Assembly: GCF_900112525.1 (NCBI RefSeq)
Contig: NZ_FOMD01000005.1
Location: 62,001 to 126,000 of the forward strand
DNA length: 64,000 nt
From: Klenkia taihuensis
Lineage (GTDB): Bacteria > Actinomycetota > Actinomycetes > Mycobacteriales > Geodermatophilaceae
Direction: 5' to 3'
The notes below the pieces were generated by a model. That model had not been told where the DNA came from. It worked only from the letters and a program-made list of their open reading frames with translations, and ran no database searches. Positions 25,533-50,443 of the stretch are shown here, in pieces; the first letter of the stretch is position 1, and each line of letters begins with the position of its first letter. The translations under genes and the position numbers were made by a program.

Positions 25533-25868
25533 TCAGGCGTGGGCGGTCGGGCCTTCGACCCGTTCGACAGCGCCCTGCCACACCCAGCAGCGCAACCGCT
25601 CCTCCCCCACCTGGAGCTCGATGCCGACGGCGTCGACCGTCCAGCGCTTGACCTGGACCGTGCAGCGGATGTCGGTATCACCGAACTTCAGCCACGCCAA
25701 AGCCCGCATGGGACCGCGCTCAGGCGCGAGCGACACGACCCGGGTGGTCAGCTGCAGCTGCTCGGGCGTGAGTGTGTGGAGAGTGCCGCGGCGCCGGGCG
25801 CCCTGCAGCCGGCGCTCCTGGGCACGCTGCGCACCCGCTTCGGGGTAGCGCCTGTTCGAACCCACCAC
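25533..25868 (-). CDS. Small conserved protein of element edge (left copy of the roughly 115-aa family)
   Basis: Protein of about 111 aa from the GTG at 25868; the frame is open to 25940. It has SNRRYPEAG near the start, QERRLQ, then a Trp-rich beta-like half (LAWLKFGDTDIRC, RCWVWQGAVERVEG). It is clearly paralogous to the protein at 50093-50443, with most motif residues shared. At the position where the right copy has its ATG, this copy has GCG, so its start must differ. It is predicted soluble and basic. Its 5' part overlaps the end of the HTH gene's open frame. I know of no function; the beta-strand/Trp pattern might suggest a small barrel that binds nucleic acid or protein. Confidence 0.6.
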   Translation of the reverse strand: MVGSNRRYPEAGAQRAQERRLQGARRRGTLHTLTPEQLQLTTRVVSLAPERGPMRALAWLKFGDTDIRCTVQVKRWTVDAVGIELQVGEERLRCWVWQGAVERVEGPTAHA

Positions 25869-26175
25869 CCAAAGATCGCACGCATGTTCGACCAGGTCTC
25901 GCGACGTTCCGGTGCCGTCCTCGAGGGTTAGAAACTCCACGGGCAGCGCCGACAGCGCGGCGCGGGATCCGGTGCTTGTTCAGCACGCGGCGAACGGCGG
26001 TCTGAGACCGGTCGACCAGCTCGGCGATTTCCCGCAGCGACCGACCTTCGACGTAGGCGGTGACGACGAAGGACTCCAACCGGTCCTGCAGCTGCCGATC
26101 GAGCACAGTGCCACTGCGGGCTGTTCCGACGAACTGCGGCAGGGGCCGCAGCTGGGGCCGGGGCGGGTAGGGCAC
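25720..26175 (-). CDS. Helix-turn-helix protein of element edge (left copy), C-terminus runs into the next gene
   Basis: The first about 75 residues carry the conserved part: PYPPRPQL at the start, then a HTH in VEGRSLREIAELVDRSQTAVRRVL. This is the small HTH type seen in actinobacterial mobile elements. The right-hand paralogue (49205-49474) ends after 89 residues, whereas this frame stays open for 151, and its last roughly 70 residues overlap the start of the downstream small gene in another frame. The extra tail is Arg/Ala/Pro-rich and probably not functional, suggesting loss of the original stop. It lies 12 bases after the 165-aa gene, the same pairing as in the right copy. Likely a DNA-binding regulator. 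Confidence 0.65.
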   Translation of the reverse strand: MPYPPRPQLRPLPQFVGTARSGTVLDRQLQDRLESFVVTAYVEGRSLREIAELVDRSQTAVRRVLNKHRIPRRAVGAARGVSNPRGRHRNVARPGRTCVRSLGGGFEQALPRSGCAACPGAPAAGRPAPRHSPHTHARAAAADHPGRVARA

Positions 26176-26187
26176 GTGCGCCGTCAG

Positions 26188-26685
26188 TCAGTCTCGGGCC
26201 GGCCACGGCACCAGCGGCGGCATCTGCTCGCCCACCTGCGTACCCGCATCGGCGTCGTGGTGTTCGTGGCTGCCGCCGGCGTGGGACAGGGCGGCCAACA
26301 GCAGCTGAAGGTGCCTCCGGTCCAGGCCGGACGCGACGTCGCCGAGGTCGACGGGCCGACCATCGGCGATGGACGCTGCCGAGCGGAGGATGCGCAGCTG
26401 GCCGCTGCTGCCCTCGATGCGGCCGACGCGCACAGCTTCGTCGAGCTCAGTCCAGGCGATGGCCGCCCAGGCCACGCCGGGGACCTGGCCGGTGGGAGGT
26501 GCGGTGTCGTCCTCGTCGGTGTCGACGGTGATGAGGTCGGCAGCAGCGAGGGCGGGAAGCCAGTGGCCTGCGTTGGCCAGCAGCAGGATGGCGGCTTCAG
26601 AGGTGTAATCACCGATGGCGGCGCGCAGCAGCGCAGACTCCAGGTCGACCGGGTCGAGGTCGGCGGCGCGGGGTGCGAACAGCAC
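26188..26685 (-). CDS. Conserved 165-aa protein of element edge (left copy)
   Basis: Unknown protein of 165 aa. Conserved features shared with the right copy at 49484-49981, without gaps, are PRA-DLDPVDL near the N-terminus, GDY-EAA-LLL, a Trp-Leu-Pro stretch, the middle AWT-LD-AVR-GRI, SGQLR-LR-AAS, HAGGSHEH and the C-terminal PPLVPWPA. It is predicted all-helical and acidic. The GTG start has a good AAGGAG six bases upstream. In both copies it is directly followed by the HTH gene, so the two probably act together. No domain name known to me fits. Confidence 0.7.
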   Translation of the reverse strand: MLFAPRAADLDPVDLESALLRAAIGDYTSEAAILLLANAGHWLPALAAADLITVDTDEDDTAPPTGQVPGVAWAAIAWTELDEAVRVGRIEGSSGQLRILRSAASIADGRPVDLGDVASGLDRRHLQLLLAALSHAGGSHEHHDADAGTQVGEQMPPLVPWPARD

Positions 26686-26966
26686 GGGGTTCTCCTTGGT
26701 GGCTGGTGCCGGTCTGTCGAGGGTCCCAGCCAGCCACAGCTGGGTGATGGTTCACGGGCGTCTGCCCCCCGGGGGGTGGTCGAGGAACGCGGGCAGGTGA
26801 GGTTGGCGCCGTACCCGTCGAGTGGTCTGGAGCTCACGGACGCGCCAGCTGCGAACCGGCGCGGGCACCCAGCCCGGAGCGGTCGCCGGCGGCGGTCGCA
26901 CCTCACCTCGATGGTGCTGACCTGCGGTGGGGCCGCACCCGGCGGCACGACCCCGACTCAGCAGGA

Positions 26967-28493
26967 TCAGTTGTTTCTGGACAGGGGTTCCTGACCGCAA
27001 GCGCGGCGCTCGACGTCGGCCAGGGCATACCCGAGGGTCTGCAGGTGGCCCAGGTAGCGGCCGGTGGCCGCACGCAAGGAGCGCCAGTCGTTGCGATCGG
27101 TGCGGGCCTCGTACGCGGCCAGCACGAAGACCAGCGTCAGCACCAGCGCGCGCGCCTCGGTGGCCTTCCCCACCAGCGCAACCAGCTCGGCCGACCGGCC
27201 GTAGGCACCCGACGCCACCCCGAGCAGATCGGCGGCGAGGTGGTTGCCGCCGACGTCGGCCAGCAGGTCGGCGTCCTGGGCGAGCGCACCGGCAACGAAC
27301 GCAGCGGTGCCCTTGGGTACGGACTTACGAGTACCCAGAGCACGCAGCCACTCCCGCCGCACGGTCTCTGCACTGCCCCAGGCCTTGTTGGACTCGATCA
27401 CGTCGCGGCGATCGGCACGGGCGGTCTCGCGCTGGTCCTCGGTCATCTCCTCGGCCGGGATGCGCGCGGCTCCCCTGCTGCCCGTGGTGGACCACCGGTC
27501 GCGGTGCCCATGGGTGACCGGGTCGGTGCAGACGAACACCGGAACCGGGCGAGGGCGCCAATGCCGCTCCCCCACCGACCCCTCGGTCTCCTCCTCCCCG
27601 TCGTCCTCGTCGTCGTTCTGGCCCTCGATGCTGGTGATGGGCTGGCCGTCGTCGTCGACCCAGCCGTAGCGCTCGGCGATGTAGGCGGCGTGACCGGGGC
27701 ACGCAGCGTGCCCGGTCACCGCCAGCTCGCCTCCGTCGGCATCGGTGAGCCGGTGCAGCGGGAGCGCCGCCTCACCGGCTGCGGGGGTGTCGACGACCCG
27801 GACTCCAGCCGTCATCAGCCGGTCGGCGGCGGCAGCGCGATGGGCGGCGGCGGTGCGCTCGTCGCGGAGCCGCTGGGCGACGTGGTCGAACCGGCCATCG
27901 CGCGCGCCGACCACCAGGGCCTTGACCGCCTCAGGGTCGGCGTCGAACTCTGCGACGGTGGCGGCCTGGGTGAGGTCCAGGAAGTCGTAGCGGGCGGTGG
28001 CGGCCTTGGCCAGCTCGGACCCGGTGACGGCGAGGGCAGCGGCGACATCGGTCTTGCTCGCTCGGGTGCGGCGAGCGATCTGGGTGGGGCTGACCCCGAA
28101 TGCTGACAGCTGGCCAATGACGTCGATCCGCTCAGCGTTGGTCAGGCCGGCGCGGTGCTCGTTCTCCGCCCACTGGGTGACCAGCCGCTCCACGGTTCCC
28201 GCGTCGTCGCAGCTCTCGTCCGCGACGACGACCACCGGCACGGAGGTGCGGCCGAGCTTGACGGCGGCCAGCGTGCGGCGGTGGCCGTAACGGACCCGCA
28301 GGCACCCGTCGACAGTGCGGACGGCGACGATCGGGACCAGGACGCCGTGCTCGGCGATGCTGCCGCAGAAGTCGGGGTCCAGACGGTCGTCGTGACGGAC
28401 GTTGAGGTCGACCAGCAACGCGGCCGGGTCGATGTCGACCAGCTCCCGTTCGCTCACGGACAGGGCGGGGGAAACGCTCTCGATGGCGGTCAT
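26967..28493 (-). CDS. ParB/RepB-type nuclease-domain protein
   Basis: ParB-family protein of 508 aa. The N-terminal ParB/Srx-like domain (about 20-110) includes VRYGHRRTLAAVKLG, the CTP-binding GHRR-type motif. A ParB HTH region follows (about 120-190, with SPTQIARRTRASKTDVAAAL), then a long C-terminal region with an acidic stretch near 300. It may bind centromere-like sites for segregation, or regulate or process the transfer region. It diverges from the relaxase gene across a 258-base gap. No ParA gene is adjacent; the nearest ParA-like gene is at 46242. Proteins of this size are typical of actinobacterial conjugative elements. Confidence 0.8.
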   Translation of the reverse strand: MTAIESVSPALSVSERELVDIDPAALLVDLNVRHDDRLDPDFCGSIAEHGVLVPIVAVRTVDGCLRVRYGHRRTLAAVKLGRTSVPVVVVADESCDDAGTVERLVTQWAENEHRAGLTNAERIDVIGQLSAFGVSPTQIARRTRASKTDVAAALAVTGSELAKAATARYDFLDLTQAATVAEFDADPEAVKALVVGARDGRFDHVAQRLRDERTAAAHRAAAADRLMTAGVRVVDTPAAGEAALPLHRLTDADGGELAVTGHAACPGHAAYIAERYGWVDDDGQPITSIEGQNDDEDDGEEETEGSVGERHWRPRPVPVFVCTDPVTHGHRDRWSTTGSRGAARIPAEEMTEDQRETARADRRDVIESNKAWGSAETVRREWLRALGTRKSVPKGTAAFVAGALAQDADLLADVGGNHLAADLLGVASGAYGRSAELVALVGKATEARALVLTLVFVLAAYEARTDRNDWRSLRAATGRYLGHLQTLGYALADVERRACGQEPLSRNN

Positions 28494-28754
28494 GACGGGC
28501 TCCAGTGGGTGACGAAGGGACGGTCGATCAAGATCAATCCTCGTCCGTCACCGCTCCTAGCAGGGCTCATCCCCGTCAGCTGTGGACACCGGGCATCGGC
28601 AACCTGCCCTGTGGACGATGGACGGACCTGACGCTCTCGGACCACCCGCCGCGGCCCACTCCGGCCGCCGACCAGAAGGCACCCACTCCGCCGACACACC
28701 TCTTGCGTAACGGGTGACAGCCGGGCGGCCCCGGGGCTCCCTGCCCTGTGTGTG
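28494..28754. promoter_or_regulatory. Divergent parB/relaxase gap, oriT candidate, with a CTGTGGAC pair
   Basis: This non-coding gap lies directly upstream of the relaxase gene, the usual place for an origin of transfer. It holds CTGTGGAC at 28580-28587 and again at 28609-28616, 29 bases apart. The same motif pair with the same spacing occurs at 39191/39220. It also holds a GATCAAGATCAATC stretch and the palindrome GCCCCGGGGC (28728-28737). A nick site could not be assigned. Confidence 0.4.
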
Positions 28755-31700
28755 ATGACGGTGCACAAGCTGACCGCCGGGGACGGGTACGCCTACCTCA
28801 GCCGCCAGGTCGCTGCGCAGGACACGACTGAACCCACTCCGGGTGGGCTGTCGTCGTACTACACCGCGCGGGGCGAAGCGCCCGGGCGGTGGATGGGCCG
28901 CGGCCTCGACGGGCTCAGCGGGCCGCCCCTCGGGCCGGAGGTGACCGAGGCGCAGATGCGGGCGCTGTTCGGGGAAGGACGTCACCCCAACCGCACCGAC
29001 GTGGAGAGGGCCGTCGTCGAGGCGGGGGGCGTGCCCGTCGCGGCTGAGCGGGCGTCACGGTTGGGTGCGCCCTACCGGGTCTTCCCGGCGGCCAACGAGT
29101 TCCGGCGGCGCTGCGCCGTCGAGTACCGCGAGTCCAACGCGGCCCGAGGTGAACGGGGGACGGCACCGGTTCCCGCGGAGGACCGCGCCCGCATCCGCAC
29201 AGCCGTCGCCACCGACATGTTCCGAGAGACCTTCGGCCGAGACCCGCTAGATCCCAGGGAGCTGTCGGGCCACCTCGCGCGGCTCTCTCGGCAGCGGACC
29301 ACCGCGGTGGCGGGCTACGACCTCGCGTTCAGCCCAGTCAAGAGTGTCTCGACGTTGTGGGCCATCGCCCCCCGGGACGTCGCCGAGGTCATCGAGAAAG
29401 CCCACGCCGACGCCGTGGCGGATGTCGTGGCCTGGCTGGAGGACCGCGCCACCTACACCCGCACCGGCCGTGACGGAGTCGCCCAGGTCGACGCGCGGGG
29501 ACTGCTCGCCGCAGCGTTCACCCACCGCGACTCGCGGGCCGGCGACCCCGATCTGCACACCCACGTCGCCGTCAGCAACAAGGTCCAGACCATCGGGGGT
29601 CGTTGGCTCGCTCTCGATGGGCGCCCCGTCTACAAGAACACCGTCGCAGCCTCCGAGCGGTACAACACCCGCATCGAGGCTTTCCTCGTCGAACGGCTGG
29701 GTGTGTGTTTCGCTGACCGGCAGGACGACGAGCCCGGCAAGCGGCCGGTCCGCGAGATCGTCGGAATCGACGGGCCGCTCCCCCGCCTGTGGTCATCCCG
29801 ACGAGCTGCCATCAACACGAGGCGAGCAGTCCTGAGCGCTGCGTTCCAGACCGATCACGGACGACCACCCACCGCGCGGGAAGCGATCCACCTCGCCCAG
29901 CAGGCCAACCTCGAGACCCGTGAAGCCAAGCATGAACCGCTGACGCACGCGGAACAGCGCGCGACCTGGCGAGCCGAGGCGCTGATCGTGCTCGGCGACA
30001 AGCACCACCTCGACAGCTACGTCAACAATGCCCTGCACCGGGCGGGCGGCCGAGCCGGCTCCGACATCACTTCAGGATGGCTGGACCAGGCGGCACAGGC
30101 GACGGTCGACCGCGTCGGGCAATCACGAGCGACCTGGAACGAGGCCCATCTCCGAGCCGAAGGGGAGCGGCTCGTCCGGCGAGCAGGAGTGCCCGCACGA
30201 GAACTCGATCTGGTGGTCGACACCATCGTCAGCCGAGCGATGTCACCCCCCATGTCGGTCCGCCTCACACCGATGCGGGAGGACGGCGAGCCAGCCGCAC
30301 TTCGACGCCGGGACGGCGCGTCGGTATTCGAGACCGCCGACTCTGCCGTCCACACCTCGGACGCGGTCCTCGAAGCAGAACGCGCGGTTATCGACGCGGC
30401 CGGACGGTTCGACGGACACACCACCCCAAGCTCGGCCGTCGAGAGCGCCCTGCTCATCGCGGCCGAATCGGGGCCGACCCTGAACCCCGGCCAGGCGGGC
30501 TTCGTCCGTGCCCTCGCCACCTCCGGCGCCCGCGTGCAGGTCGCCGTCGCGCCCGCAGGCACCGGCAAGACCACCGCCCTTCGCGCCCTGGCCATCGCCT
30601 GGCGAGCCGGTGGCGGCACCGTCGTCGGGCTCGCGCCCACCGCCGCCGCCAGCTCCGTCCTACGGGAGCAGCTCGCCGACGCAACCGACACGGTGGCCAA
30701 GTTCGTGCACGCAGCGCAGACCGGGATCGACCCGCCGGCCTGGCTGAGCTCCATCGGACCGGGATCCCTCGTCATCGTGGACGAAGCCGGTGCAGCCACC
30801 ACCCACGACCTCGCCGCCGTCATCGCCACAGTCGTGGCCGCGGGCGGCTCGGTACGTCTGGTCGGCGATGACCACCAGCTAGCGCCCATCGGCGCCGGTG
30901 GACTGCTCGCCGACCTGGCAGCCGCCAACGGCGCCGCCCATCTCGACGAGGTCGTCCGCTTCACCCACGCCGAGAGCGGCGAGCCGAACGCCGTCGAGGG
31001 CTTGGTCTCGCTCGCACTGCGCGAAGGAGACCCGACCGCGCTGGCCTACTACGCGGACCGCGGCCGACTGCACGTCGGCGACCTCTCGTCCTGCGTCGAC
31101 CAGGCCTACGACGCCTGGGCCGCCGACCGGACAGCAGGACTCGATCCGCTGATGCTCGCCCCCACACGGGAGCTGGTCCGGGAACTCAACCTGCGCGCCC
31201 GCGACGACCGCCTCGCCCGAGAGGGGACACCGTCACGGGAGGTCGACCTCGCCGACGGCACCAGGGCATCGGCCGGCGACGTCGTCATCAGCCGTCGGAA
31301 CGACCGGACGCTGGCCAGCGGGACGGCGAGCTGGGTCGCCAACGGGGACCGGTGGACCATCGCTGCAGTCCGCCACTCCGGCGCCGTCGACGCCGTCCAC
31401 ACGGCGACGGCCGCGCTCGTGACCCTCCCGCCCGACTACGTCCGCAACCACCTCCGCCTCGGCTACGCCACCACCGTCCACGGCGCCCAAGGCGTCACTG
31501 CCGACTCCAGCTACACCGTGGTGGCCGGCCACGAATCCCGCCAGCTCCTCTACGTCGCGCTCACCCGAGGCCGGCACACCAACCACGCCTTCGTCACCGT
31601 CACCGGAGACGGCGACGAGCACAGCGCCATCACCCGCGACGGGGTTCTGCCTCCCACTGCCGTCGAGGTTCTCCGACGGGTCCTTGCGCGGAACGACGCC

Positions 31701-33854
31701 CTGCGGTCGGCCAGCAGTGTCATCGCCGCCGAGGATGACCCCGAACAGCAACTCGCGGCAGAGGTCGACCGTTACGTGCACTCGCTGGGAACCGCGGCCG
31801 AGGAGCTGGTCGGGCCGGGCGGGATGGCCGCCATCGACCACGCAGCCGAGACCGCCGTCCCTGGCCTGACCGACGAACCCGCCTACCCGGCACTGCGCGC
31901 CGACCTCGCGCTGCACGGCGCGGCCGGGCACGACGCACCATCGCTACTGCGGGAAGCCTCCGTCGACCCTCGAGGCCTGGACGGCGCCCGCGACGCCGCA
32001 GCCGTCCTCGACTGGCGCATAGGGGCGCCGACCCCCGACGGACCGCCGCCACCGCTCCCCTGGCTCCCCGCCATCCCGCGCGCCGTCTCGGACGCTCCCA
32101 CCTGGGGTGACTACCTGGGTCGGCGTGCCCGCCGCGTGCACGAGCTCGCGACAGCGATCGCCGAGGACGCCGAGTCCTGGACCCCGAACTCGGCCCCACC
32201 ATGGGCCAGACCCCTCATCCCCGACCACGAATTGGTCCGCGACCTCGCGGTCTGGCGAGCAGCTGCCGGCGTCGAACGGACAGACCCACGCCCCACCGGC
32301 GCCCCCAGCAGCACAGCGGCCGACCTCGCCGCACAGCAGGGGCTCGACGACCGTGTCCGCCGGTGCGTAAGCGAAGCGACCGCGGGCGCCGTCCGATGGG
32401 CCGCCCAGCTGCGCGACGCAGCTCCCGACCTCATCAACGACCCCTTCTGGCCCGTCCTCCTCGATCGGCTCGTCGACCGGCGCATGGACGACCCGAACGG
32501 CGCCTCCCTGGTCGAGGCCGTGACTATCAACCCGCTGCCGGATGAGCTGCCTGCGGCCGCATTGTGGTGGCGCCTGGTCGAACACTTGCGCCTCCGCAGC
32601 CCGGACCCTGCACAGCTCGCTGTCGTCGAGGGTCTCGATCCCTCCCCGACGGTGGACCCCGTGGTCGCAGCCCCGGGCTACGGTGAAATCGGTCCGTCCC
32701 GAGCACGGGTGCTGCAGCTCAACCAGCTCGCCGCAGACTTCTTCGCCGATGCCTACCCCGGCTCCTGGGCACAGAGCTACCTCGCCGAGCGTCTGGGCAC
32801 CGACCCCAGCAACGCCACCAACCACGTCATCGGCCTTGCACCGCAAGAGTGGACAGGCCTCGTCGACTACCTCCGACGTGGCGGTGCTAGCGACTTGGAG
32901 CTGCTCGCATCGGGGCTAGCAAGCAGGACAACCAGGGGCGGAGTAGTTGACCGCTTCCGTGACCGCGTCATGTTCGCGATCCAGGACGATGACGGCATCG
33001 TCGGCTGGATCGGTCGACGCCACCCCGACGCCGACACGCAACCGCACCCCGCTTCGCCGAAGTACCTGAACACCGCCGAGACCGTCGCCTTCACCAAGGG
33101 GCAACAGCTGTTCGGGCTCGTGGAGAGCCGCCGTGACATCGCCCGCGGAGCGACTGCTGTCCTGGTCGAAGGCCCCCTCGACGCCCTCGCGGTGACCATG
33201 GCCGGCGCCGGCGACTTCATCGGCGTCGCACCACTGGGCACCGCCTTTACCGAACCGCAGGCCGAACGTCTGCTCTCTGCGGTTCGCGACGACCAGCGGG
33301 GACCGATCGTGGCAATGGACTCCGACGATGCGGGACGACGCTCGGCGGAGGGCATCTTCTGGCGGCTGGGCACGCGAACCGAGGCGCGATCACTGACGCT
33401 GCCCGACGGTGAGGACCCAGCTGGCTTCCTGCACCGCGCCGGGGCCCCGGCGTTGGCGACCGCGTTGAGGGCTTCGCCGAGCCTGGCTGGGGCGCTGGTC
33501 GAGGCACGGATGGACGAATTCGCTAAGGACTTGGCCACCGTCGAGGGTCAGGTCGCGGCTACCCGGCGGGCCGCCCAGGTCATCGCGGCTACACCCGTAA
33601 CGACATGGGCGGCCCTGCTCACACAGGTCGTGGCCCGAACCGGCATCGCACCCGACATCGCGCTGCAAGAAGCTCTCGCCGTCGGCGACCTGCTGACTTC
33701 ACCCGTGCGGCATCGGACGGCCGAATCGCGAGACATCGGAGAGCTTGGGCGCGAGAGCATCCCCCGCGCTCGGCAAGCGGTGCAGCAAGAGCCCGGTTCT
33801 ACGAGGGCAGCACCGCCTCCTCGAGCCGCGAGGTGCCATAGATTGCCGTCCTGA
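28755..33854 (+). CDS. MobF-family relaxase fused to helicase and TOPRIM primase-like domain
   Basis: Very large conjugation protein, about 1700 aa. The N-terminal relaxase (about 1-430) has paired Tyr clusters (GYAYL near 12-16, SSYYTARGEAPGRW near 35-47) and the three-His metal site in FTHRDSR and LHTHVAV (about 258, 269, 271). A superfamily-1 helicase follows, with Walker A APAGTGKTT near 602-609, Walker B IVDEAG near 673, and later motifs to about 960 (LYVALTRGRHTN). The C-terminal third has a primase-like segment and a TOPRIM fold with LVEGPLDAL near 1470 and MDSDDAGRR near 1521. It should nick oriT, stay covalently attached to the transferred strand, unwind DNA, and possibly prime replacement synthesis in the recipient. 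A GTG one codon earlier is also possible. Confidence 0.9.
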   Translation: MTVHKLTAGDGYAYLSRQVAAQDTTEPTPGGLSSYYTARGEAPGRWMGRGLDGLSGPPLGPEVTEAQMRALFGEGRHPNRTDVERAVVEAGGVPVAAERASRLGAPYRVFPAANEFRRRCAVEYRESNAARGERGTAPVPAEDRARIRTAVATDMFRETFGRDPLDPRELSGHLARLSRQRTTAVAGYDLAFSPVKSVSTLWAIAPRDVAEVIEKAHADAVADVVAWLEDRATYTRTGRDGVAQVDARGLLAAAFTHRDSRAGDPDLHTHVAVSNKVQTIGGRWLALDGRPVYKNTVAASERYNTRIEAFLVERLGVCFADRQDDEPGKRPVREIVGIDGPLPRLWSSRRAAINTRRAVLSAAFQTDHGRPPTAREAIHLAQQANLETREAKHEPLTHAEQRATWRAEALIVLGDKHHLDSYVNNALHRAGGRAGSDITSGWLDQAAQATVDRVGQSRATWNEAHLRAEGERLVRRAGVPARELDLVVDTIVSRAMSPPMSVRLTPMREDGEPAALRRRDGASVFETADSAVHTSDAVLEAERAVIDAAGRFDGHTTPSSAVESALLIAAESGPTLNPGQAGFVRALATSGARVQVAVAPAGTGKTTALRALAIAWRAGGGTVVGLAPTAAASSVLREQLADATDTVAKFVHAAQTGIDPPAWLSSIGPGSLVIVDEAGAATTHDLAAVIATVVAAGGSVRLVGDDHQLAPIGAGGLLADLAAANGAAHLDEVVRFTHAESGEPNAVEGLVSLALREGDPTALAYYADRGRLHVGDLSSCVDQAYDAWAADRTAGLDPLMLAPTRELVRELNLRARDDRLAREGTPSREVDLADGTRASAGDVVISRRNDRTLASGTASWVANGDRWTIAAVRHSGAVDAVHTATAALVTLPPDYVRNHLRLGYATTVHGAQGVTADSSYTVVAGHESRQLLYVALTRGRHTNHAFVTVTGDGDEHSAITRDGVLPPTAVEVLRRVLARNDALRSASSVIAAEDDPEQQLAAEVDRYVHSLGTAAEELVGPGGMAAIDHAAETAVPGLTDEPAYPALRADLALHGAAGHDAPSLLREASVDPRGLDGARDAAAVLDWRIGAPTPDGPPPPLPWLPAIPRAVSDAPTWGDYLGRRARRVHELATAIAEDAESWTPNSAPPWARPLIPDHELVRDLAVWRAAAGVERTDPRPTGAPSSTAADLAAQQGLDDRVRRCVSEATAGAVRWAAQLRDAAPDLINDPFWPVLLDRLVDRRMDDPNGASLVEAVTINPLPDELPAAALWWRLVEHLRLRSPDPAQLAVVEGLDPSPTVDPVVAAPGYGEIGPSRARVLQLNQLAADFFADAYPGSWAQSYLAERLGTDPSNATNHVIGLAPQEWTGLVDYLRRGGASDLELLASGLASRTTRGGVVDRFRDRVMFAIQDDDGIVGWIGRRHPDADTQPHPASPKYLNTAETVAFTKGQQLFGLVESRRDIARGATAVLVEGPLDALAVTMAGAGDFIGVAPLGTAFTEPQAERLLSAVRDDQRGPIVAMDSDDAGRRSAEGIFWRLGTRTEARSLTLPDGEDPAGFLHRAGAPALATALRASPSLAGALVEARMDEFAKDLATVEGQVAATRRAAQVIAATPVTTWAALLTQVVARTGIAPDIALQEALAVGDLLTSPVRHRTAESRDIGELGRESIPRARQAVQQEPGSTRAAPPPRAARCHRLPS

Positions 33855-33983
33855 TGCTCGCACCGGGGACGTTCTGCCGTTGCCCCGGCGACCGAGAGAC
33901 ATCGGCTGCCACGCCTACGTACAGGAGCGCAGCGCGTCTTAGAACGAGATCTGGACTTCAGCCTTCAAGGGCCAACCCTCGCG

Positions 33984-33989
33984 TATAAA
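33984..33989 (+). promoter_or_regulatory. Possible -10 element (TATAAA) before the small membrane protein gene
   Basis: TATAAA stands out in the otherwise GC-rich 184-base gap after the relaxase gene, about 50 bases before the ATG at 34039. No convincing -35 is visible at 16-18 bases upstream, so this is a weak call. Confidence 0.3.
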
Positions 33990-34038
33990 GACGCGCGCTC
34001 GTATCGTGGCGCCAGACGACGCTTAGCATGGAGCTCAG

Positions 34039-34468: not shown

Positions 34469-34545
34469 CTGGCGGCCTGACTCTTGCCATCACGGGGTGA
34501 AGCCTGTCACAGTGCTGAGCGTTTCCTGTGCGAGGAGCGAGCTGT

Positions 34546-35541
34546 GTGAAACCGGGCCTTTATCCTAGCCATACTTGGATGCGGCGTCCTTCTGACGTCC
34601 GTCGCAACCCCGGCGAACGCCGCGCCAGACCCTTGCGACCTCGCTCCGTCGGTCCTAGTTGCGGAGCTAGTACCGCTTTCCATGCTGTGCGATCTAACCG
34701 GAGTCGTCGCCCGCAGTGAGACGACCGGTCTATCTATCGTCGTTCCGGCGCCCGGATACGGCGTCGGGGCAAACGCGCTTCGAATCGGGGGCGAGGCTCA
34801 GTTCTCACTCACGGTCGAAAGCGACGGAAAGCTAGTGGTAGATGAGCTCATCGCAGACTTCAGCGCGCACCCACAACCTGCTGGCCCCATCAGCGAGGGC
34901 CAAGTCGGAGGGCAGTCTGCATGCACTGACTACAGTTACACGAATCTTTATGGCAAAGAGTCGGACAATCGCGTTTGGTACTACAACAACTCTCGCGTAC
35001 GGGGCGGAGCCGGCTCTTCCGCCGCGTCCTATTACCAGCAGCAGATCATTTCAGGTGTCGTTGATCTTCTGGCAGGCTACAACGACTGTGGGCTCCCTCG
35101 CAATTTTGCAGCAAGTCAGACCTACAACGGGACTACATCCATGTCTGGCAGTGCAGTGGGCAACGGAACATGTTCAGGATCGGACGGATACAACATTGTG
35201 GATTGGGGGTCAATCGAGACGAGCACCACCCTCGCCGTGGCTTGCACCTACAACATCAACTATTTGATCGGCAAGGAGATCACTGGAGGAGACATCAAGA
35301 TCGACCCCGAATGGAGCTGGCTGACCGGCGCTGTCCCCTCGACGTGCACTTCGTCATACTCTCTCCTTGCGGTCATGACTCACGAATGGGGTCATACCTT
35401 CGGTTTAGGTCACACTCCCGAGCCCAACGTCGATCATCGACAGCAGACCATAGTCCATTCGTCACTCCCTGCTCGACATTCCAGGAGACTCTTGGACGAG
35501 GTGACTGGACTGGAATGTTTGACACATACGGTCTTCGCTAG
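34546..35541 (+). pseudogene. Secreted matrixin-like zinc metalloprotease, two single-base frameshifts
   Basis: The main frame contains HEWGHTFGLGH, the HExxHxxGxxH zinc site of metzincins. Upstream, this frame encodes a signal peptide (AFILAILGCGVLL up to ANAAPDPC), but an in-frame TGA blocks its start. Removing one C near 34552 joins it to GTG-AAA at 34546, which has GAGGAG nine bases upstream. After the zinc site the frame ends QQTI, while another frame supplies SPFVTPCSTFQETLGRGD and ends at 35541. Adding one G after 35451 restores QQTMSP, the Met-turn expected in this clan. With both repairs the product is about 331 aa. The region is AT-richer and uses codons unlike its neighbours, so it looks acquired. 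Either a fresh pseudogene or two sequencing errors. Confidence 0.75.
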
Positions 35542-35560
35542 GCGCCTGTTGCGCCACGGT

Positions 35561-36064
35561 TCAAGGGACAGGACCTCGTCCGGCCATTCTTTGTTGCGAC
35601 GCCGAATGTGCGTATCGACCCTGAGCTGGCCAGGCCTGATGCCGCCCAGTTCGGCACGTGCTTTCCCCCAGCCGGTCGGTCATCCGATCGCAGAACGTGG
35701 GTAAGGCGTACCGGTTCCAGTCCTCGATCTGCCCGGGGGCGGCCGACGCCTCAGCCTCCCACCGAAGTACTGCAAGCACCGGCAGCTCTCGGGCAATGTG
35801 CGGGTGCTCCCGCCAGCACGCGGGGATCAGCTGCGCCGGGCGCCAGGCGAACTCGTGGTTGAGCCACAGCACGACGTCGTCGCACCACGACCAGATGCTC
35901 TCTGCAAGCTCCGCTGTGCAGGACGCCGGCTCCCACGGGCGCTCCAGCTCCGCCACAGCCGACGCCGGGAAGGCCTGCCCGCCTTCGCGACCGTGCACCG
36001 ACCTCAGCAGGTCGAGCGCGGCGAGCACGGCCAGCGGCGGCGCCGGGAACGGCAGCACGATCAC
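35561..36064 (-). CDS. Hypothetical protein at the end of the transfer operon
   Basis: Protein of 167 aa. The central part has WCDDVVLWLNHEFAWR, a CWREHPHIARELPVL stretch and YALPTFCDRM, a Trp/His-rich helical pattern that recalls small proteins (DUF4913-like in style) encoded beside actinobacterial coupling-protein genes. I would not assign the family firmly. Its ATG overlaps the stop of the coupling-protein ATPase gene (ATGA), so it is the last gene of the operon. The last about 35 residues are of unusual composition and lie toward the AT-rich cargo, so the original end may have been altered when the cargo was inserted. Confidence 0.6.
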   Translation of the reverse strand: MIVLPFPAPPLAVLAALDLLRSVHGREGGQAFPASAVAELERPWEPASCTAELAESIWSWCDDVVLWLNHEFAWRPAQLIPACWREHPHIARELPVLAVLRWEAEASAAPGQIEDWNRYALPTFCDRMTDRLGESTCRTGRHQAWPAQGRYAHSASQQRMAGRGPVP

Positions 36065-39691: not shown

Positions 39692-40788
39692 CCGATGTGC
39701 CGAACAGCCACGACCTGGCCGGACCACCGGCTGGCCTCGGTCACGATGACGGGCACCCCGGTCATGGGGGCGTGCACCAGGTAGAGGTGGCGGCCGTCCT
39801 CCTGGTCGACGTAGCCGGCCACCATCCCGACGTGCCCCGGGCGCAGTGCGGTCCCGCCTGCGCCCGGGATCATGACCAGGTCACCCCCCACCGCATCGGT
39901 GAGGTTGATGGCGCCCGGGGTGCCGTGCCCGGTCTGGGCTGCGGCGTTGTGCGGCAGGGCGACCCCGCCCGCAGCCCACGCCGCCATGGTCAGACCGGAG
40001 CAGTCGAAGGAGTTGGGTCCTGCGGCCGCCCACACGTAGGGCTTGCCGAGTTGGGCGAGGGCGTACTGAACAGCAGCCACGCCCTGCGGCGACCCGTTGA
40101 TGACCAGACCGGCCGGGACGGTCGTCGTCCCGGTGGTGTTGCCGCCCATCGGGCCGACGAACTCACCCACAGGCCGTGCACCACCTGCGCCGGGGCAGAT
40201 CGCGGCGGCGTCGCTGGTGCCCGCGGCACCCGCCGTGCTGCTCGCGGTGGGCCAGATCTGTCCCACGACCTCGTCCGCCAGTCCGACGTGGAGTGCGTAC
40301 CGATCCGGGTAGGCCGAGATCTGGACTGCCTGCGCGACGTCACCCATGGGTCTGGTCTCCCAGTCGGGGACGTCGACCATCCGGTCGAGGAACGCGTTGG
40401 TCGACCGGACGGGGTCGATGGCAACGGCTTCGGTGTAGATCGACACCCGCTGCTGGAACAGCCCTTCGGAGTCGTGATCGGTCTGCACGGCGGAGTTGAC
40501 CAGCCGGGACTCGGTGTAGGCGGTGGCCACCGCGATGACCGCAGCTCGTACCGGGAGCTGTCGTTCGGCGACCGTCGACACGATGGTCCAGGCGTGACCC
40601 ATCTGGTCGGCATCGAGCTCGACGCCGGTGACCGTCTGGCCCGAGCCTGCGCCCGCGCAGAGGCCCGGCGCCGCTCCCGCCGGTGTTGCACCACCGCCCG
40701 TCAGGACCATCAGGACTGCCGTCACGACGGACACCACCGGGACGACGGCCACGGCGACGCCCTTCGCCGCGCCCTGACTGGTGGTCAC
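39688..40788 (-). CDS. NlpC/P60 peptidoglycan hydrolase of the conjugation machinery
   Basis: Protein of 366 aa. A signal-anchor helix (about 8-35, ending AAPGLC) is followed by a lysozyme/VirB1-like helical segment (about 45-170, with AYTESRLVNSAV carrying a candidate catalytic Glu). A C-terminal NlpC/P60 domain (about 225-366) has the active Cys in NSFDCSGLTMAAW, the His in RPGHVGMVAG and a third polar residue in LVHAP. It should cut cell-wall peptides, and possibly glycan, to let the secretion channel through. The GTG at 40788 overlaps the VirB4 gene stop. Upstream in-frame residues are shadow. The two-domain layout matches the cell-wall hydrolases of Gram-positive type IV secretion systems. 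Confidence 0.87.
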   Translation of the reverse strand: MTTSQGAAKGVAVAVVPVVSVVTAVLMVLTGGGATPAGAAPGLCAGAGSGQTVTGVELDADQMGHAWTIVSTVAERQLPVRAAVIAVATAYTESRLVNSAVQTDHDSEGLFQQRVSIYTEAVAIDPVRSTNAFLDRMVDVPDWETRPMGDVAQAVQISAYPDRYALHVGLADEVVGQIWPTASSTAGAAGTSDAAAICPGAGGARPVGEFVGPMGGNTTGTTTVPAGLVINGSPQGVAAVQYALAQLGKPYVWAAAGPNSFDCSGLTMAAWAAGGVALPHNAAAQTGHGTPGAINLTDAVGGDLVMIPGAGGTALRPGHVGMVAGYVDQEDGRHLYLVHAPMTGVPVIVTEASRWSGQVVAVRHIG

Positions 40789-42302
40789 TTGTCCTCGCCC
40801 CCAGGGGCGGCGATGGCGTCGTTGGTGTTCGTCAAGGCCACGTCGACCGAGGTCCGGACGGTCTGCACCTTCGCGACATGGCTGCCGACCATCCACAGGG
40901 CCCGGCCCCGGCCCGCGGCGGCCCAGTCGGTGACGATGCGCTCGGCCATCGGGGTCAGGCCCAGCAGGCCGGACAGTTCATCGCCGATCTGCTCGTCCTG
41001 ACCGAGGAGCACCTTGGTCGCGCACAGGTGCAGCAGGTCCCGTGCGATGGCGACCGCTTGGCTGTCGGCGTCGCCGACGGTCAGCATGTCGGAGGGCTTG
41101 TGGGCGACGACGATCTGGATGCAGCCGTCGTTCCGGGACAGTCGGAGGTCGGCGTCGAGCGACTTGACCGCGTCGGTACCCAGACGCATCTGCTTCCAGC
41201 ACTCGTCCCTAATGACGATGCGCAGGTCCCCGGGTTCGGCAACCTGGGTCATCGCTCGGCCCCACGAGTTGAGGCAGGTCAGCGCGACCCCGACGGCCTG
41301 GTCCCCGAGCGGTTCCAGTCTCGACAGGGACAGTGACTGGATCGGCGCCCGCCAGTCGACCTGCACGGTCGTCGGAGCGTCGAAGAGACCGGCGAGGTGG
41401 CCGGTGACGAGGGCGCCCAGCGCGTCGCGCACCGGTCGGGTGTCGTCGAGGAAGTGCTGACGGTCGGCGTACCGGCAGGCATCGACCAGGGTGTCCCCCG
41501 GCTCCCGCAGGGCATGCCACAGCTGCGGGATGGTGATCTCCCGCAGGCGATCGCCGCCGTCGCTGTAGCCGGTGACGTCACGCAGCACGTGGCCGACAGC
41601 GGTCTCGGCCGTGGGCCCGAACGGCACGTTCTGCGACCCGACCAGGCCCCGCACCAGCAGCAGCCAGCGAGCGAACACCATCGCGGCCCGTCGCTGTGCC
41701 TCCGCCCTCGACAGCGCCGTCCAGTCGTTGCCCAGCGGGCCGAAGTCCAATGGGTTGATCCGTGCCGGCAAGCCATGGCCGACGGCGTGCGGCTCGACGC
41801 CGAGAGCGCTGCACAGGGGCGCGTACTCGTCCTTCACGTCGCCCAGGACGAGGGTGCGGTAGCCGTAGGCCATCTGCCGGAGGGCGAACATCTTGACCGT
41901 CCCGGACTTCCCCCGACCCGGTGCCCCGAACACGATCATGTTGGGGTTGGTCACCCCGGCGACACCACCCAGCGTCCAGCCGATGGGGTCCGCGGCGAAC
42001 GCACCGCCGGACAGGTAGTCGATGCCGAGGAGCGCCCCCGAGGACGACAGACCGTTGCCCGCGATGAACGGCCAGACACCACCGACCTGCTCCGTCGTCA
42101 TCCGGTACACCGCCATCGGAGCAGGTACCGCCGCCCACCCGCCGGCGACCTCGGCCCGCCCACGCCGTCCGACCGACGCGCCGAACGGACCACGATCCAC
42201 GTGGCGGACCGGCCCCGGTGCCGTGGTCGGGAGGTCGTGGTGGAAGTCGGACATCAGCCGAGCGAGTCCCCGGCCACCCCCGGCATTCCTCGAGACCATC
42301 AT
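40785..42302 (-). CDS. VirB4-like conjugation ATPase
   Basis: Cytoplasmic ATPase of 505 aa. Walker A is FGAPGRGKSGT at about 125-135, preceded by the conserved GVTNPNMIVFG. The Walker B region is LRIVIRDECWK, and an AHKPSDM sensor segment follows. The motor energises the type IV secretion channel and pairs with the coupling ATPase. The ATG at 42302 overlaps the stop of the SCO6880-type gene. Compared with Gram-negative VirB4 (about 800 aa), it lacks the long N-terminal domain, which in actinobacterial systems seems to be supplied by the separate upstream protein. Confidence 0.85.
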   Translation of the reverse strand: MMVSRNAGGGRGLARLMSDFHHDLPTTAPGPVRHVDRGPFGASVGRRGRAEVAGGWAAVPAPMAVYRMTTEQVGGVWPFIAGNGLSSSGALLGIDYLSGGAFAADPIGWTLGGVAGVTNPNMIVFGAPGRGKSGTVKMFALRQMAYGYRTLVLGDVKDEYAPLCSALGVEPHAVGHGLPARINPLDFGPLGNDWTALSRAEAQRRAAMVFARWLLLVRGLVGSQNVPFGPTAETAVGHVLRDVTGYSDGGDRLREITIPQLWHALREPGDTLVDACRYADRQHFLDDTRPVRDALGALVTGHLAGLFDAPTTVQVDWRAPIQSLSLSRLEPLGDQAVGVALTCLNSWGRAMTQVAEPGDLRIVIRDECWKQMRLGTDAVKSLDADLRLSRNDGCIQIVVAHKPSDMLTVGDADSQAVAIARDLLHLCATKVLLGQDEQIGDELSGLLGLTPMAERIVTDWAAAGRGRALWMVGSHVAKVQTVRTSVDVALTNTNDAIAAPGGEDK

Positions 42303-43789
42303 CGGGCGCCCCGACGACGCGGCAGGCCGACACCGAGCGGGATGCACGCGGCGGCGAAGCCGGAGTCCTGCGCCAGGTCCAACCGAAGCGGCTTGAACCC
42401 GCTGTTGGTGATGCTGGACTCCAGCCGTCGTCCGAAGTCGCTGATGGACCAGGTCGCGGGCACCGTCACCGCGGCGGCCACCGCAACCCGCACCAGCGCG
42501 TTGCCCTCCGCGAACCGGATGTCCCGGCCCTCCACCCTGGCGGCTTCCTGCCGGTGCGCTGCGCGCACCCGGAAGCCCCCACGCCGGCGGATCTCGTTGG
42601 TCAGCTCGGAGCTCATCGACTCCCCGCCGATCATCCTGTCCGCCCGGGTGTGGCTGATCGGTTCGAAGAAGACTGTCACCGAACGGCGTTCACCAGCGGC
42701 CGTCGGAACGAGGACGGGGGCCAGCGCACCCATGACCGCCCCCTTGTCGGGGAGCAGCACGGTGCAGGTGACCGACTGCCATGCGTCGTGCTCGTAGTGG
42801 CGCCGTTCCGGGGGCGGCGCGGACGACGGGCCGGCCAGGGCCATCGGCAGATCGGGCTCCTCGGTGGTCAACCGGGCGCGGTCACCGGGCGCGAAGCCGG
42901 TGCGGACAGCAGCTGCGAGGCCGGATGAGTCGAGCCACGCCACCGACGAGCAGCCGACAGGTCCGAGCAACCGCGCCTCGAGCTCCGACATGAGGCCGTA
43001 CAGCACGCGCGCTCGGCCGTCCGTCCCGCCGCCTGCCTCCCTGGCGAGCCTGGAGATGCGCCGTTCCGGGACCACGACCGTCACGAAGGCCTCATGCCGG
43101 ACCCCGGCCGCGGTCATGATGTCCGCGAGCTCGTCGATCACCGCATGCGCCAGCGCCGGTGCGTCTGCCCGCCGGTTCGCTGCCTGCCAGGCAGACCGTT
43201 CCGCGCCGTCGTCCGGCACGGTCCGCACCTGCAGCGCGAAGGACGAGACGAGCTCGCCGGTGGCGGTGCTCTCCAGCAGCTCCGCCAGGCCGTGCCCGAG
43301 CCGCGTCCGGGTGTCGGCCTCGGCCAGGCCGATGCCGGGGTGGGCGATGCGGGCCACCACGGACCAGGTGCGTTCACGGTCGTCCGAGACCACCGCGGGC
43401 CGGCAGAGCAGCGGGCCGAACGGTGGTCCGTCGTGGGTGCGGATCCCCGACAGCACCCCCGGCAGATCTGCGTCCTCGAGGTCGTCGACGTCGCCTGCCG
43501 CGGACCGGGACTGCCAAGAGGTCCACCCGAGAGCCGCGCCGACGAGCCGGTGGCAGGCATCCCACGACCAGCGCAACGGAGTGCGGCCGCGCACCGGCAC
43601 GGCGACGAGGACGACGAACACCGCCCACACCGGGGTCCACGCCGCGGCCACGGCCCACCGCTGAGCGCCGAGGGCCGCGAAGACGGGTATGCCTGCGGCC
43701 GCCGCGCCGACGCAGGTCCCGACGCCGAGGCCGCCGAACGATGCGCCGCGATCGACGGACCAGGAGCCATAACGAACCGGAGTGCTCAC
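42299..43789 (-). CDS. SCO6880-type conjugation protein
   Basis: Protein of 496 aa with two adjacent membrane helices near residues 18-60 (FGGLGVGTCVGAAAAGIPVFAAL and a following VVLVAVPV run) and then a large soluble domain. The layout and position directly before VirB4 match the SCO6880 family known from Streptomyces conjugative elements. In arrangement it resembles a VirB3 helix pair fused to the N-terminal domain of VirB4, and it probably anchors the motor ATPase to the membrane. GTG at 43789 overlaps the VirB6 gene stop. The family name is from memory of annotation practice. Confidence 0.75.
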   Translation of the reverse strand: MSTPVRYGSWSVDRGASFGGLGVGTCVGAAAAGIPVFAALGAQRWAVAAAWTPVWAVFVVLVAVPVRGRTPLRWSWDACHRLVGAALGWTSWQSRSAAGDVDDLEDADLPGVLSGIRTHDGPPFGPLLCRPAVVSDDRERTWSVVARIAHPGIGLAEADTRTRLGHGLAELLESTATGELVSSFALQVRTVPDDGAERSAWQAANRRADAPALAHAVIDELADIMTAAGVRHEAFVTVVVPERRISRLAREAGGGTDGRARVLYGLMSELEARLLGPVGCSSVAWLDSSGLAAAVRTGFAPGDRARLTTEEPDLPMALAGPSSAPPPERRHYEHDAWQSVTCTVLLPDKGAVMGALAPVLVPTAAGERRSVTVFFEPISHTRADRMIGGESMSSELTNEIRRRGGFRVRAAHRQEAARVEGRDIRFAEGNALVRVAVAAAVTVPATWSISDFGRRLESSITNSGFKPLRLDLAQDSGFAAACIPLGVGLPRRRGAR

Positions 43790-45135
43790 GGCTTCTCCCC
43801 TGCGGGCGGCGCGGTGCCGGCCGGGGCGGGGCCGGCTGATGGCCATGGGTCAGGCCCGGGGATCGGCGGAGGCGCGGGAGACGTCGAGGTCCCGCCCCCG
43901 GCGTCCCTCGTCGCACCACCGACGCCCGAAGGAGCTGATGCCCGTTGCGAGCGGCGTTGCCCGGAGCCAGCCGGGTAGCTCGGATGACCGACACCTCCCG
44001 CGTTGAGCACGTCTGCGGCGAGGTCCACCGTGCGGTGCGCGACTGCGGCGACGACGCCCACACCTGCCGCCGCCGCGCCGCCGACCGCACCGGCTGCTGC
44101 CCCCAGCCGCCCGACCGACTGCGCCTCCGCAGCGGCCTCACCGTGCGACCGGCCGTCTCCGACGCTGGCAGCAGCAGCCCCGCTGCCATTGCCGTGACCA
44201 CCACTCCGGGCGATGCCCGACAGCCCGCCCGCGTCGCTCCACGACTGTCGGAGTGCGGACCCCGATGCCGTACCGGGGTCGACGAACGCGAGCAGGCGGA
44301 ACAGGACGAGCGGGCAGACGGCCCCGACGGCCACCATGACGGCGCCGACGACGGCCGTCCCGGCGGCCTGCGCGGTGGAGTCGCCGTTGCCGGCGACGAC
44401 GCCGGCCGAGAGCTGCACGCCGATGCCGAGCATGAGAGCCGCCGTCGGTGTGATGAGCAGGCTCGCGAAGAACCACCGCAGGCTCTTCCAGAACCAGGAC
44501 CGGGTGCTGTCGCTGAGCAGCCCGCCGGCCGAGATGGGCGCGGTCGCGATCAGGATGATCAGGGCCGCCTCCCGGACGAGCGCGATGATCACGTAGAAGA
44601 ACGCCGCAGGGATGACCAGCAGGAGCGACGACAGACCGAGGACCGTGGCCGCGGTGGCGTCGACGACGTCACGAGGCCAGGAGTTGGCGGGGTCGACGGC
44701 GGACAGGCTGTCCACGTCCAGCATCGCTCGAAGGATCCCGCGGGCCAGTTCGGCCGCGGCGAGGATGAACCCGCCGGCCGCCCCCAGGTAGCCCACCCAG
44801 ACGAGACCGAACTGCAGCACCCCCAGGACCACCCGGCCCAGCGACCGGCCATCCCGCCGCACGAGGGCGAGGGTGAGCTGGACGAACATCATGACGACGG
44901 CGACGCTGGCGCCCAGCCACAGCGTGGTCGGGAGGACCGCACCCATCGGCCCGGTCTCGGACACGTCCGGTGTGGTGAGTGCATCGATGACCCGGAGGGC
45001 GAGACCGAGCAGCCACAGCCCGGCGGACCAGATGCTGACCATGGCTGCTGTCCACACGTCGGCGACGGCCTCGGCGGCGAGGTCGCCGAGCCAGCTCATG
45101 GGGTTGAGGTCGATCGCGACGACGTCCTCACCCAT
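43786..45135 (-). CDS. VirB6/TrbL-like polytopic channel protein
   Basis: Protein of 449 aa. It has an N-terminal amphipathic stretch, then at least six strongly hydrophobic helices between about 30 and 295 (for example FVQLTLAL, VVLGVLQFGLVWVGYL, LLLVIPAAFFYVIIALV, ALIILIATAPISAGGLL, ASLLITPTAALMLGIG). A long Gly/Ala/Pro/Ser-rich cytoplasmic or extracellular tail follows (about 300-449). The SAGGLL segment after a charged loop is typical of TrbL/VirB6 channel proteins. The ATG at 45135 overlaps the preceding gene by eight bases. It forms part of the inner-membrane DNA channel. Confidence 0.82.
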   Translation of the reverse strand: MGEDVVAIDLNPMSWLGDLAAEAVADVWTAAMVSIWSAGLWLLGLALRVIDALTTPDVSETGPMGAVLPTTLWLGASVAVVMMFVQLTLALVRRDGRSLGRVVLGVLQFGLVWVGYLGAAGGFILAAAELARGILRAMLDVDSLSAVDPANSWPRDVVDATAATVLGLSSLLLVIPAAFFYVIIALVREAALIILIATAPISAGGLLSDSTRSWFWKSLRWFFASLLITPTAALMLGIGVQLSAGVVAGNGDSTAQAAGTAVVGAVMVAVGAVCPLVLFRLLAFVDPGTASGSALRQSWSDAGGLSGIARSGGHGNGSGAAAASVGDGRSHGEAAAEAQSVGRLGAAAGAVGGAAAAGVGVVAAVAHRTVDLAADVLNAGGVGHPSYPAGSGQRRSQRASAPSGVGGATRDAGGGTSTSPAPPPIPGPDPWPSAGPAPAGTAPPAGEKP

Positions 45136-47129: not shown

Positions 47130-47884
47130 GCGACCGCTGCCAGGTAGTCGCGGGCGACCGCCCGCAGCGTCTCCAGCGTCCTGCGCCGACGGCGGTACAG
47201 GGTGCGGGTGGAGATGCCGTGCTCGGCCGCGACGATGTCGTCACCGCCGGATGGGTGCAGGTGTCGGCCCCGCTCGGTCGCGATGAGCAGCTCCAGCTCG
47301 CGCGGGTCGACCCCGGAGTCGACAGCCCACTGCAACAACTCGACGACGTCGACGTCGTCCGCCTCCGGTGTCGGGACGGCGGGCTGCAGCCGGGTGATGT
47401 CGCCGTCCGCGGTGAGCACCTCCCCGCGCTCGGGGTGACGTCGGTTCCTCGGCCTCAGCTCGGCGAGGACTGCGTGCCGGGTGTCGTGCCGAAGGTTCGC
47501 GGCGATCGACCGGGGTCGGCGTCGCCACGGGTACCGGCGGATCTGGCAGGCCAGCTCACCGGTGACCACGGCGACGATGTCCGGACTGAGGTCCTGAAGC
47601 TGACGGACCGTGGTCCACACCAGGCCGCTCAACAGGTGGAGCAGCAAGGCGAGCGCGTCGTCGTCCGCGCCGTTGTCGGCCGCGGCCCGCCTCACCAGTG
47701 CGGCGAGGACGGCGTCGCTGCGCTCGTGGTCGCTGGTTGCCGCGCAGGCCTGGACGACGTCGGCGACGGTCGAGGTGGCCCTCAGTGCGGGCTCGGTCTC
47801 CGCCCAGCGCTCGAGGGTGCGGCTGGCGTCGACGCGGACGACGAGCGCCGGCCAACTGCCGACGATCGTGGGGTCGTGGAACAT
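47126..47884 (-). CDS. HTH protein at the head of the transfer operon
   Basis: Protein of 252 aa with a C-terminal helix-turn-helix (AEHGISTRTLYRRRRRTLETL at about 222-242) resembling sigma-factor region 4 or LuxR-type DNA-binding ends. It is preceded by RELELLIATERGRH, which looks like the first helices of that domain. The N-terminal 150 residues are helical, with no recognised domain. It is the first gene of the 12-kb minus-strand operon and faces the repeat cluster at 47944-48046, so it is a good candidate for the regulator of the operon through those repeats. No membrane segments. Confidence 0.7.
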   Translation of the reverse strand: MFHDPTIVGSWPALVVRVDASRTLERWAETEPALRATSTVADVVQACAATSDHERSDAVLAALVRRAAADNGADDDALALLLHLLSGLVWTTVRQLQDLSPDIVAVVTGELACQIRRYPWRRRPRSIAANLRHDTRHAVLAELRPRNRRHPERGEVLTADGDITRLQPAVPTPEADDVDVVELLQWAVDSGVDPRELELLIATERGRHLHPSGGDDIVAAEHGISTRTLYRRRRRTLETLRAVARDYLAAVA

Positions 47885-47943
47885 GCGGGTGCCTCCGGCA
47901 TCAGTGGATGCCGACGACGTTCCGAAGAGACGTTCGAGCGCCC

Positions 47944-48046
47944 GTCACCCCGCTGCCTCGTCCGGCATCCGTCACCCCGCCCGGTGGCGACGTCGAGCCG
48001 GGGGTGACACGACCCGGCCGGGGTGACAAGGCCCCGCGAGGGTGAC
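47944..48046. repeat. Cluster of GTCACCCCG/CGGGGTGAC repeats between the transfer operon and the ligase gene
   Basis: GTCACCCCG occurs at 47944-47952 and 47971-47979. In inverted orientation, a G-rich GGGGGTGAC form ends at 48008, CGGGGTGAC is at 48019-48027 and GAGGGTGAC is at 48038-48046. The two direct copies start 27 bases apart, and the three inverted copies end 19 bases apart. The cluster lies between divergent genes and looks like a multi-site operator or iteron array. Confidence 0.6.
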
Positions 48047-48167
48047 CGCTGCAGAACCTCCCGTGCGGACTGCAGGCAGTGACGGACACGCCCGCGAATC
48101 ACCCGGCGGGGTAGTCCGAGCGCTTGAACCTTCGGCGGCACACTTACCCGGACCACAGGCTGACCTC

Positions 48168-49187
48168 GTGACGAGCCCGGCTGGCCTGCCCCGACCACGG
48201 CGCGCCGCGCCGGGAGGTCTGGCCGGGCCGGTACCGGTGGCGCTCGCCAAAGCCGTCGAGCAGGTGCCGGCCGCCGACAGCCTTCCTGGAGGCTGCGCGT
48301 ACGAGCTGAAGTGGGACGGCTTCCGCCTCGTCGTGGTGCGGGAGACGGACGGTGCTCGGCTGTGGTCCCGGCAGGGCAAGGACCTCACGGCTCGCTTCCC
48401 CGACATCGCCCGCGCAGCGACCGCCCAACTGTCACCCGGCACCGTCGTCGACGGCGAGGTGGTCATCTGGGCCGACGACCGGCTCGACTTCGGCTTGCTG
48501 CAGCGCCGGCTCGTCATCGGCCTGTCCGGTCTGCAGGCGCTGGTCCGCGCGCACCCAGCGTCCCTCGTCGTCTTCGACGTCCTGTCGAACGCCGGCCGCG
48601 ACGTGCGACGCCTGCCCCTGGTCCAGCGTCGTCGGAGGCTGGAGCGCCTGGCGGCGGACTGGTCACCGCCGATGCAGCTGTGCCCGCAGACCAACGACCG
48701 GGACGAAGCACTGACCTGGATGACCGACTACCGGCCCGCCGGCGTGGAGGGCCTCGTGGTCAAGGCCGCCGGCGGTGCATACCTACCCGGCAGGCGGGAC
48801 TGGCTCAAGGTCAAGTCCCGGGAGACCACCGAGGTCGTCGTCGGCGGCGTCCTCGGCTCCCTGGAGCGACCCAGCCAACTGGTCGCCGGCCGTTACCTCG
48901 ACGGACAGCTGCGCGTCGTCGGCCGGTCGACCCCGCTGAACCGGGCTCAGTCGGCCGAACTGGCCGCGGCGCTGACCCCGGCCGACGAGGACCACCCCTG
49001 GCCCGAGCGCATCGGCACCGGCGCGTTCGGCGGGGGTCGGCTCTCTGTGCCGATGCTGCGGGTCGAACCGACCGGGGTGGCCGAGGTGTCCGCCGACGCC
49101 GCGCTGACCGCTGGCGTGTTCCGGCACCCGCTGCGGTTCGTGCGGATGCGCCCCGACCTCGGGCCCGCGGACGTGCCCACCATCTGA
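48168..49187 (+). CDS. ATP-dependent DNA ligase (LigC/LigD-type)
   Basis: Nucleotidyltransferase-type DNA ligase, 339 aa. Motif I ELKWDGFR carries the adenylated Lys at about 48. Motif III is in LVVFDVL, motif IV in VEGLVVKA and motif V in WLKVKS; an OB-fold follows (about 215-330). Size and motifs match the stand-alone actinobacterial ligases related to NHEJ LigC/LigD. The GTG at 48168 begins about 20 residues before the conserved domain; the frame is open to a GTG at 48042, but the extra stretch lacks conservation features. It diverges from the transfer operon. It could seal the transferred strand after recircularisation or repair breaks; that link is inference. Confidence 0.85.
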   Translation: MTSPAGLPRPRRAAPGGLAGPVPVALAKAVEQVPAADSLPGGCAYELKWDGFRLVVVRETDGARLWSRQGKDLTARFPDIARAATAQLSPGTVVDGEVVIWADDRLDFGLLQRRLVIGLSGLQALVRAHPASLVVFDVLSNAGRDVRRLPLVQRRRRLERLAADWSPPMQLCPQTNDRDEALTWMTDYRPAGVEGLVVKAAGGAYLPGRRDWLKVKSRETTEVVVGGVLGSLERPSQLVAGRYLDGQLRVVGRSTPLNRAQSAELAAALTPADEDHPWPERIGTGAFGGGRLSVPMLRVEPTGVAEVSADAALTAGVFRHPLRFVRMRPDLGPADVPTI

Positions 49188-49204
49188 GGACTCGTCCGTC
49201 GACG

Positions 49205-49474
49205 TCAGGTCCGTTGAGACCGTCGCCGGGCGCCGGTGCGGGCCGCACCGACAGGACGCAGCGGAACGTCGTGTGCATGCAGAACGCGTCGTACGGCGGT
49301 CTGCGAGCGGTCGACGAGCTCACCGATCTCCCGCAGCGACCGGCCCTGGGTGTAGGCCGTGACAATGTAGGCGTCCAGCCGCGCGCGCAGCTCGCGATCC
49401 AGGAACCTGCCGTCGACTGAGGTACCGGCGAACTCCGGCTCAGGTGCCAGCTGTGGCCTCGGCGGATAGACCAT
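49205..49474 (-). CDS. Helix-turn-helix protein of element edge (right copy)
   Basis: Small basic protein of 89 aa. YPPRPQLAP at the start and the HTH in TQGRSLREIGELVDRSQTAVRRVLHAHDVP match the left copy at 25720-26175, with most residues shared through the HTH. It has a natural stop after an Arg/Thr-rich tail, unlike the left copy. It follows the 165-aa gene by nine bases on the same strand and converges on the ligase gene. It is probably a DNA-binding regulator or an accessory to the 165-aa protein. Confidence 0.75.
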   Translation of the reverse strand: MVYPPRPQLAPEPEFAGTSVDGRFLDRELRARLDAYIVTAYTQGRSLREIGELVDRSQTAVRRVLHAHDVPLRPVGAARTGARRRSQRT

Positions 49475-49483
49475 CGACGTCGC

Positions 49484-49981
49484 TCACTCCCCCGCAGGCC
49501 ACGGCACCAACGGCGGGACCGGGTCACCCACGTCGCCGACGACCCCGGTGCTGCGGTGCTCATGGCTACCGCCGGCGTGGGCGATGGCGGCGAGCAGCAG
49601 AGCCAGGCGCGGCCGGTCCAGGCCTGCGGCGAGGTCGCCGAGGGCCACCGGCTGACCTTCGGCGAGGGATGCGGCTGCGCGCAGCAGACGCAGCTGGCCG
49701 GCCGACCCCACGATCCGCCCTTGCCGGACCGCCGCGTCCAGGTCTGTCCAGGCGACCTGCGCCCAGCCGATGCCGGCGGGCCGGCCTGTCGGTGGTCCTG
49801 CGGGGTCGTCGTCGTAGTCCACGGCGATCAGCTCCGCGCCGGCAAGGGTGGGCAACCAGTAGCCGTCGTTGACCAGCAACAGCACGGCGGCCTCGGCGCT
49901 GTAGTCACCAACCGCGACGCGCAGCAGCGCGTTCTGCAGGTCGACAGGGTCCAGGTCGACCGCGCGAGGCGGGAACAGCAC
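49484..49981 (-). CDS. Conserved 165-aa protein of element edge (right copy)
   Basis: Aligns end to end without gaps with the protein at 26188-26685: DLDPVDL, GDYSAEAAVLLL, YWLPTLAGAELIAVD, AWTDLDAAVRQGRI, SAGQLRLLRAAASLAEGQ, AHAGGSHEH and PPLVPWPA. I chose GTG at 49981, which matches the left copy's start, with GAGGAG about ten bases upstream; the open frame extends a little further. It is predicted helical and soluble. It is paired with the HTH gene downstream and 111 bases after the small Trp-rich gene. Unknown function. Confidence 0.72.
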   Translation of the reverse strand: MLFPPRAVDLDPVDLQNALLRVAVGDYSAEAAVLLLVNDGYWLPTLAGAELIAVDYDDDPAGPPTGRPAGIGWAQVAWTDLDAAVRQGRIVGSAGQLRLLRAAASLAEGQPVALGDLAAGLDRPRLALLLAAIAHAGGSHEHRSTGVVGDVGDPVPPLVPWPAGE

Positions 49982-50092
49982 GGTCCTCACTGCTCCTCGT
50001 GATCGACAGGACTGGCGGCCCACGAGTGTGCCCGCCGCTGGGGCTCCTCGGCGGGGGTGTCACCCACGGGGGTCAACGCGCAACCGGTCAGA

Positions 50093-50443
50093 TCATCCAG
50101 CCGGCGGACGACCCGCGGTGCGCTGAACTGCCCCCTGCCAGACCCAGCAGCGCAATGTCTCGGTCCCGACGTCCACCTCGACCCCTACGGCGTCGTCGGT
50201 CCATCGCCTGACCCGGACCGGGCAGCGGATGTCGGCGTCGCCGAAGCGCAGCCAGGCAAGCCCCCACATCGTCGCCCGCTCGGGGGCGATGGATACAGCC
50301 TGGTTGTCGAGATCGAGCTGCTCCTCCGTCAGGCTCTGCAGCCGCCCCTGCAGGCGGATCTCCTGTAGCCGGCGTTCCTGCCCACGCCGTGCACCGGCGT
50401 CTGGATAACGACGGTTCGTCCCCACCTGGACAGATTCGCACAT
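50093..50443 (-). CDS. Small conserved protein of element edge (right copy of the roughly 115-aa family)
   Basis: Protein of 116 aa from the ATG at 50443. Motifs TNRRYPDAGAR, QERRLQE, LTEEQLDLDNQAVSIAPER, LAWLRFGDADIRC and LRCWVWQGAVQR match the left copy (25533-25868). It probably contains a small beta-barrel-like half with conserved Trp. Here it is upstream of the 165-aa gene, whereas the left copy lies downstream of the HTH gene, so the set has been rearranged. The long open frame upstream of the ATG is probably non-coding. Function unknown. Confidence 0.7.
   Translation of the reverse strand: MCESVQVGTNRRYPDAGARRGQERRLQEIRLQGRLQSLTEEQLDLDNQAVSIAPERATMWGLAWLRFGDADIRCPVRVRRWTDDAVGVEVDVGTETLRCWVWQGAVQRTAGRPPAG

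Follow-up and report, generated by a model that had tools for sequence, protein, structure and literature searches.

Results

The window analysed here, a 64,000-nucleotide stretch of Klenkia taihuensis (C6:62001-126000), carries two homologous sets of three small genes, all on the minus strand and about 23.3 kb apart. The left set comprises Y115L (111 aa, 25533-25868), HTHL (a helix-turn-helix (HTH) protein of the HTH_58 type with a conserved 79 aa, 25939-26175) and one member of a 165-aa pair (26188-26685); the right set comprises HTHR (89 aa, HTH_58, 49205-49474), the other 165-aa member (49484-49981) and Y115R (116 aa, 50093-50443). The reading frame of HTHL stays open to 25720 and thus overlaps Y115L, for which neither Pfam (E up to 1) nor PHROGs (E up to 0.1) gave a match. 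The pairwise homology between 25.5-26.7 and 49.2-50.4 kb given in a preliminary description is confirmed. Neither set marks an island border: the distance to the closer copy of the 94-bp repeat described below is ~79 kb for the left set and ~32 kb for the right one.

Relatives of one set gene often, not always, lie near DNA-transfer genes, and part of the family clusters with genes for single-stranded DNA-binding protein (SSB), ParB or the anti-restriction protein ArdC; at the window, ParB is the only such companion. Y115-family homologues are also carried by Micrococcales plasmids. A candidate origin of transfer (oriT/nic region) with a 27-bp conserved site, GACACACCTCNTGCNNNNCGGGTGACA, was located at 28693-28719 (plus strand). 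The interval between it and the left set, in which parB sits, has a listed feature at 26967-28493 (minus strand). The set genes of the window point away from this candidate oriT; at MobP loci they point towards mobC, and no oriT was located there. The candidate oriT also has a copy in two mini-elements (L291 and L286), which carry an integrase together with an excisionase-like gene; mobF was not found in either.

The window copy of the uncharacterised set family tested for ATP-binding cassette (ABC) domains showed no ABC_tran match. Among the 47 family members, four matched ABC_tran (best E 0.16) and five DUF2397 (best E 0.0075). Thirteen rows of the Micrococcales-type branch aligned to the post-P-loop half of 15 ABC domains (prob 96.5, score 52.8), and 30 column shuffles of the same alignment scored at most 9.7; all 47 rows scored 2.2 against the ABC domains, inside the range of their own shuffles. 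Fold searches of the family listed no ABC protein.

A direct repeat of 94 bp (94.7% identical; C6:8114-8207 and C6:144099-144192) corresponds to the tRNA-Pro(GGG) 3' end plus flank. A tyrosine integrase (Phage_integrase E 1.7e-28) adjoins the right copy, beyond which follow core genes that resemble der, cmk and scpAB, named by eye from translations; on these grounds the window falls wholly within a ~136-kb island, whose left end is placed by the repeat alone. The same-genus genomes compared include K. terrae, K. brasiliensis, K. marina, Klenkia sp. PcliD-1-E and 'Modestobacter' sp. Leaf380. A search for an empty site found none, and no synteny left of attL except one 67% match in K. marina. 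Upstream of the same tRNA, Leaf380 shares DNA of the side carrying type IV secretion system (T4SS) and Tad genes and of the integrase side (66-72%).

The transfer genes include a MobF relaxase-helicase with a C-terminal primase part (DNAG_N/Toprim; 28752-33854, plus strand, TrwC E 2.7e-82), a single 1700-aa protein uniting relaxase, helicase and DnaG-type primase parts. On the minus strand follow a TraG/T4CP coupling protein (36061-37485, TraG-D_C E 7.4e-20), a T4SS ATPase (40785-42347) and a TrbL/VirB6-like protein (43786-45135). The ATPase resembles plasmid proteins annotated as SCO6880 family (best plasmid match 53% over 99%), and Pfam gave no match for 40785-42116. The mobF-traG interval also holds a Matrixin-like metallopeptidase (34682-35704, E 6.6e-6). 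The right set is followed, at higher coordinates, by a LysM protein and Tad-like genes (52612-60467, minus strand), where Pfam named only LysM and a T2SSE ATPase; the remaining genes we take to be Tad genes.

An ATP-dependent DNA ligase (48042-49187, plus strand) adjoins Y115 or HTH in three more elements of the genus, and Y115 in Arthrobacter mangrovi. The right set also neighbours a long protein (50681-52357; weak PADLOC match PDC-M58A, E 2.5e-5), a possible defence nuclease; its 58% relative in another genome (G003) likewise adjoins Y115.

Discussion

The island has the att repeats beside a tRNA, the integrase, the relaxase, the coupling protein and the VirB4-like ATPase of a T4SS-type integrative and conjugative element, and it looks capable of self-transfer. 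Because relatives of one gene are often, not always, near DNA-transfer genes, the set may help transferred DNA to start or settle after transfer. The interpretation offered in the preliminary description is partly supported. In a leading region, genes lie on the first-entering side of oriT and are transcribed towards it, the T-strand serving as their template. We therefore propose that the set works like a leading-region module, not that it is one, as the window genes run away from the candidate oriT and that of the MobP loci was not located.

A less likely reading, an effect on tra transcription, has in its favour that in 11 loci and in the window's right set the genes lie between LysM/Tad and T4SS genes. 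This leaves the company of ParB, SSB and ArdC elsewhere unaccounted for, as well as the presence of the cassette in a mini-element that yielded no T4SS gene. A toxin-antitoxin system is improbable: small size, close spacing, the HTH gene in second place, a location on mobile DNA and several copies per genome would fit one, but the regular pairing of the two genes expected of it was not found. Recent duplication of the three-gene block inside this element, with which the spacing and shared strand would agree, is very improbable.

This unnamed module, which recurs near relaxases in both Geodermatophilaceae and Micrococcales, supplies concrete candidate genes for establishment or anti-defence in Actinobacteria. 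With the candidate oriT, which mini-elements without mobF share, mobilisation in the group becomes directly testable. The literature on early-acting transfer genes, in the portions available, covers streptococcal elements and those of F/IncI, Salmonella and Serratia; Actinobacteria are not among its subjects. The island resembles actinobacterial T4SS-type integrative and conjugative elements with a MOBF relaxase, as partly available (PMC3218068), in its tyrosine integrase, tRNA site, TrwC-type relaxase, coupling protein and T4SS ATPase. L291 and L286, by their gene content, resemble integrative and mobilizable elements (PMC5704250, PMC11389934). The set itself compares with the ssb-parB2-psiB-psiA leading-region cluster of F/IncI plasmids, as far as the accessible parts of its descriptions go (PMC8406263, PMC11541004): in both, ParB-like and SSB genes are rowed with small unassigned proteins and linked to a relaxase.
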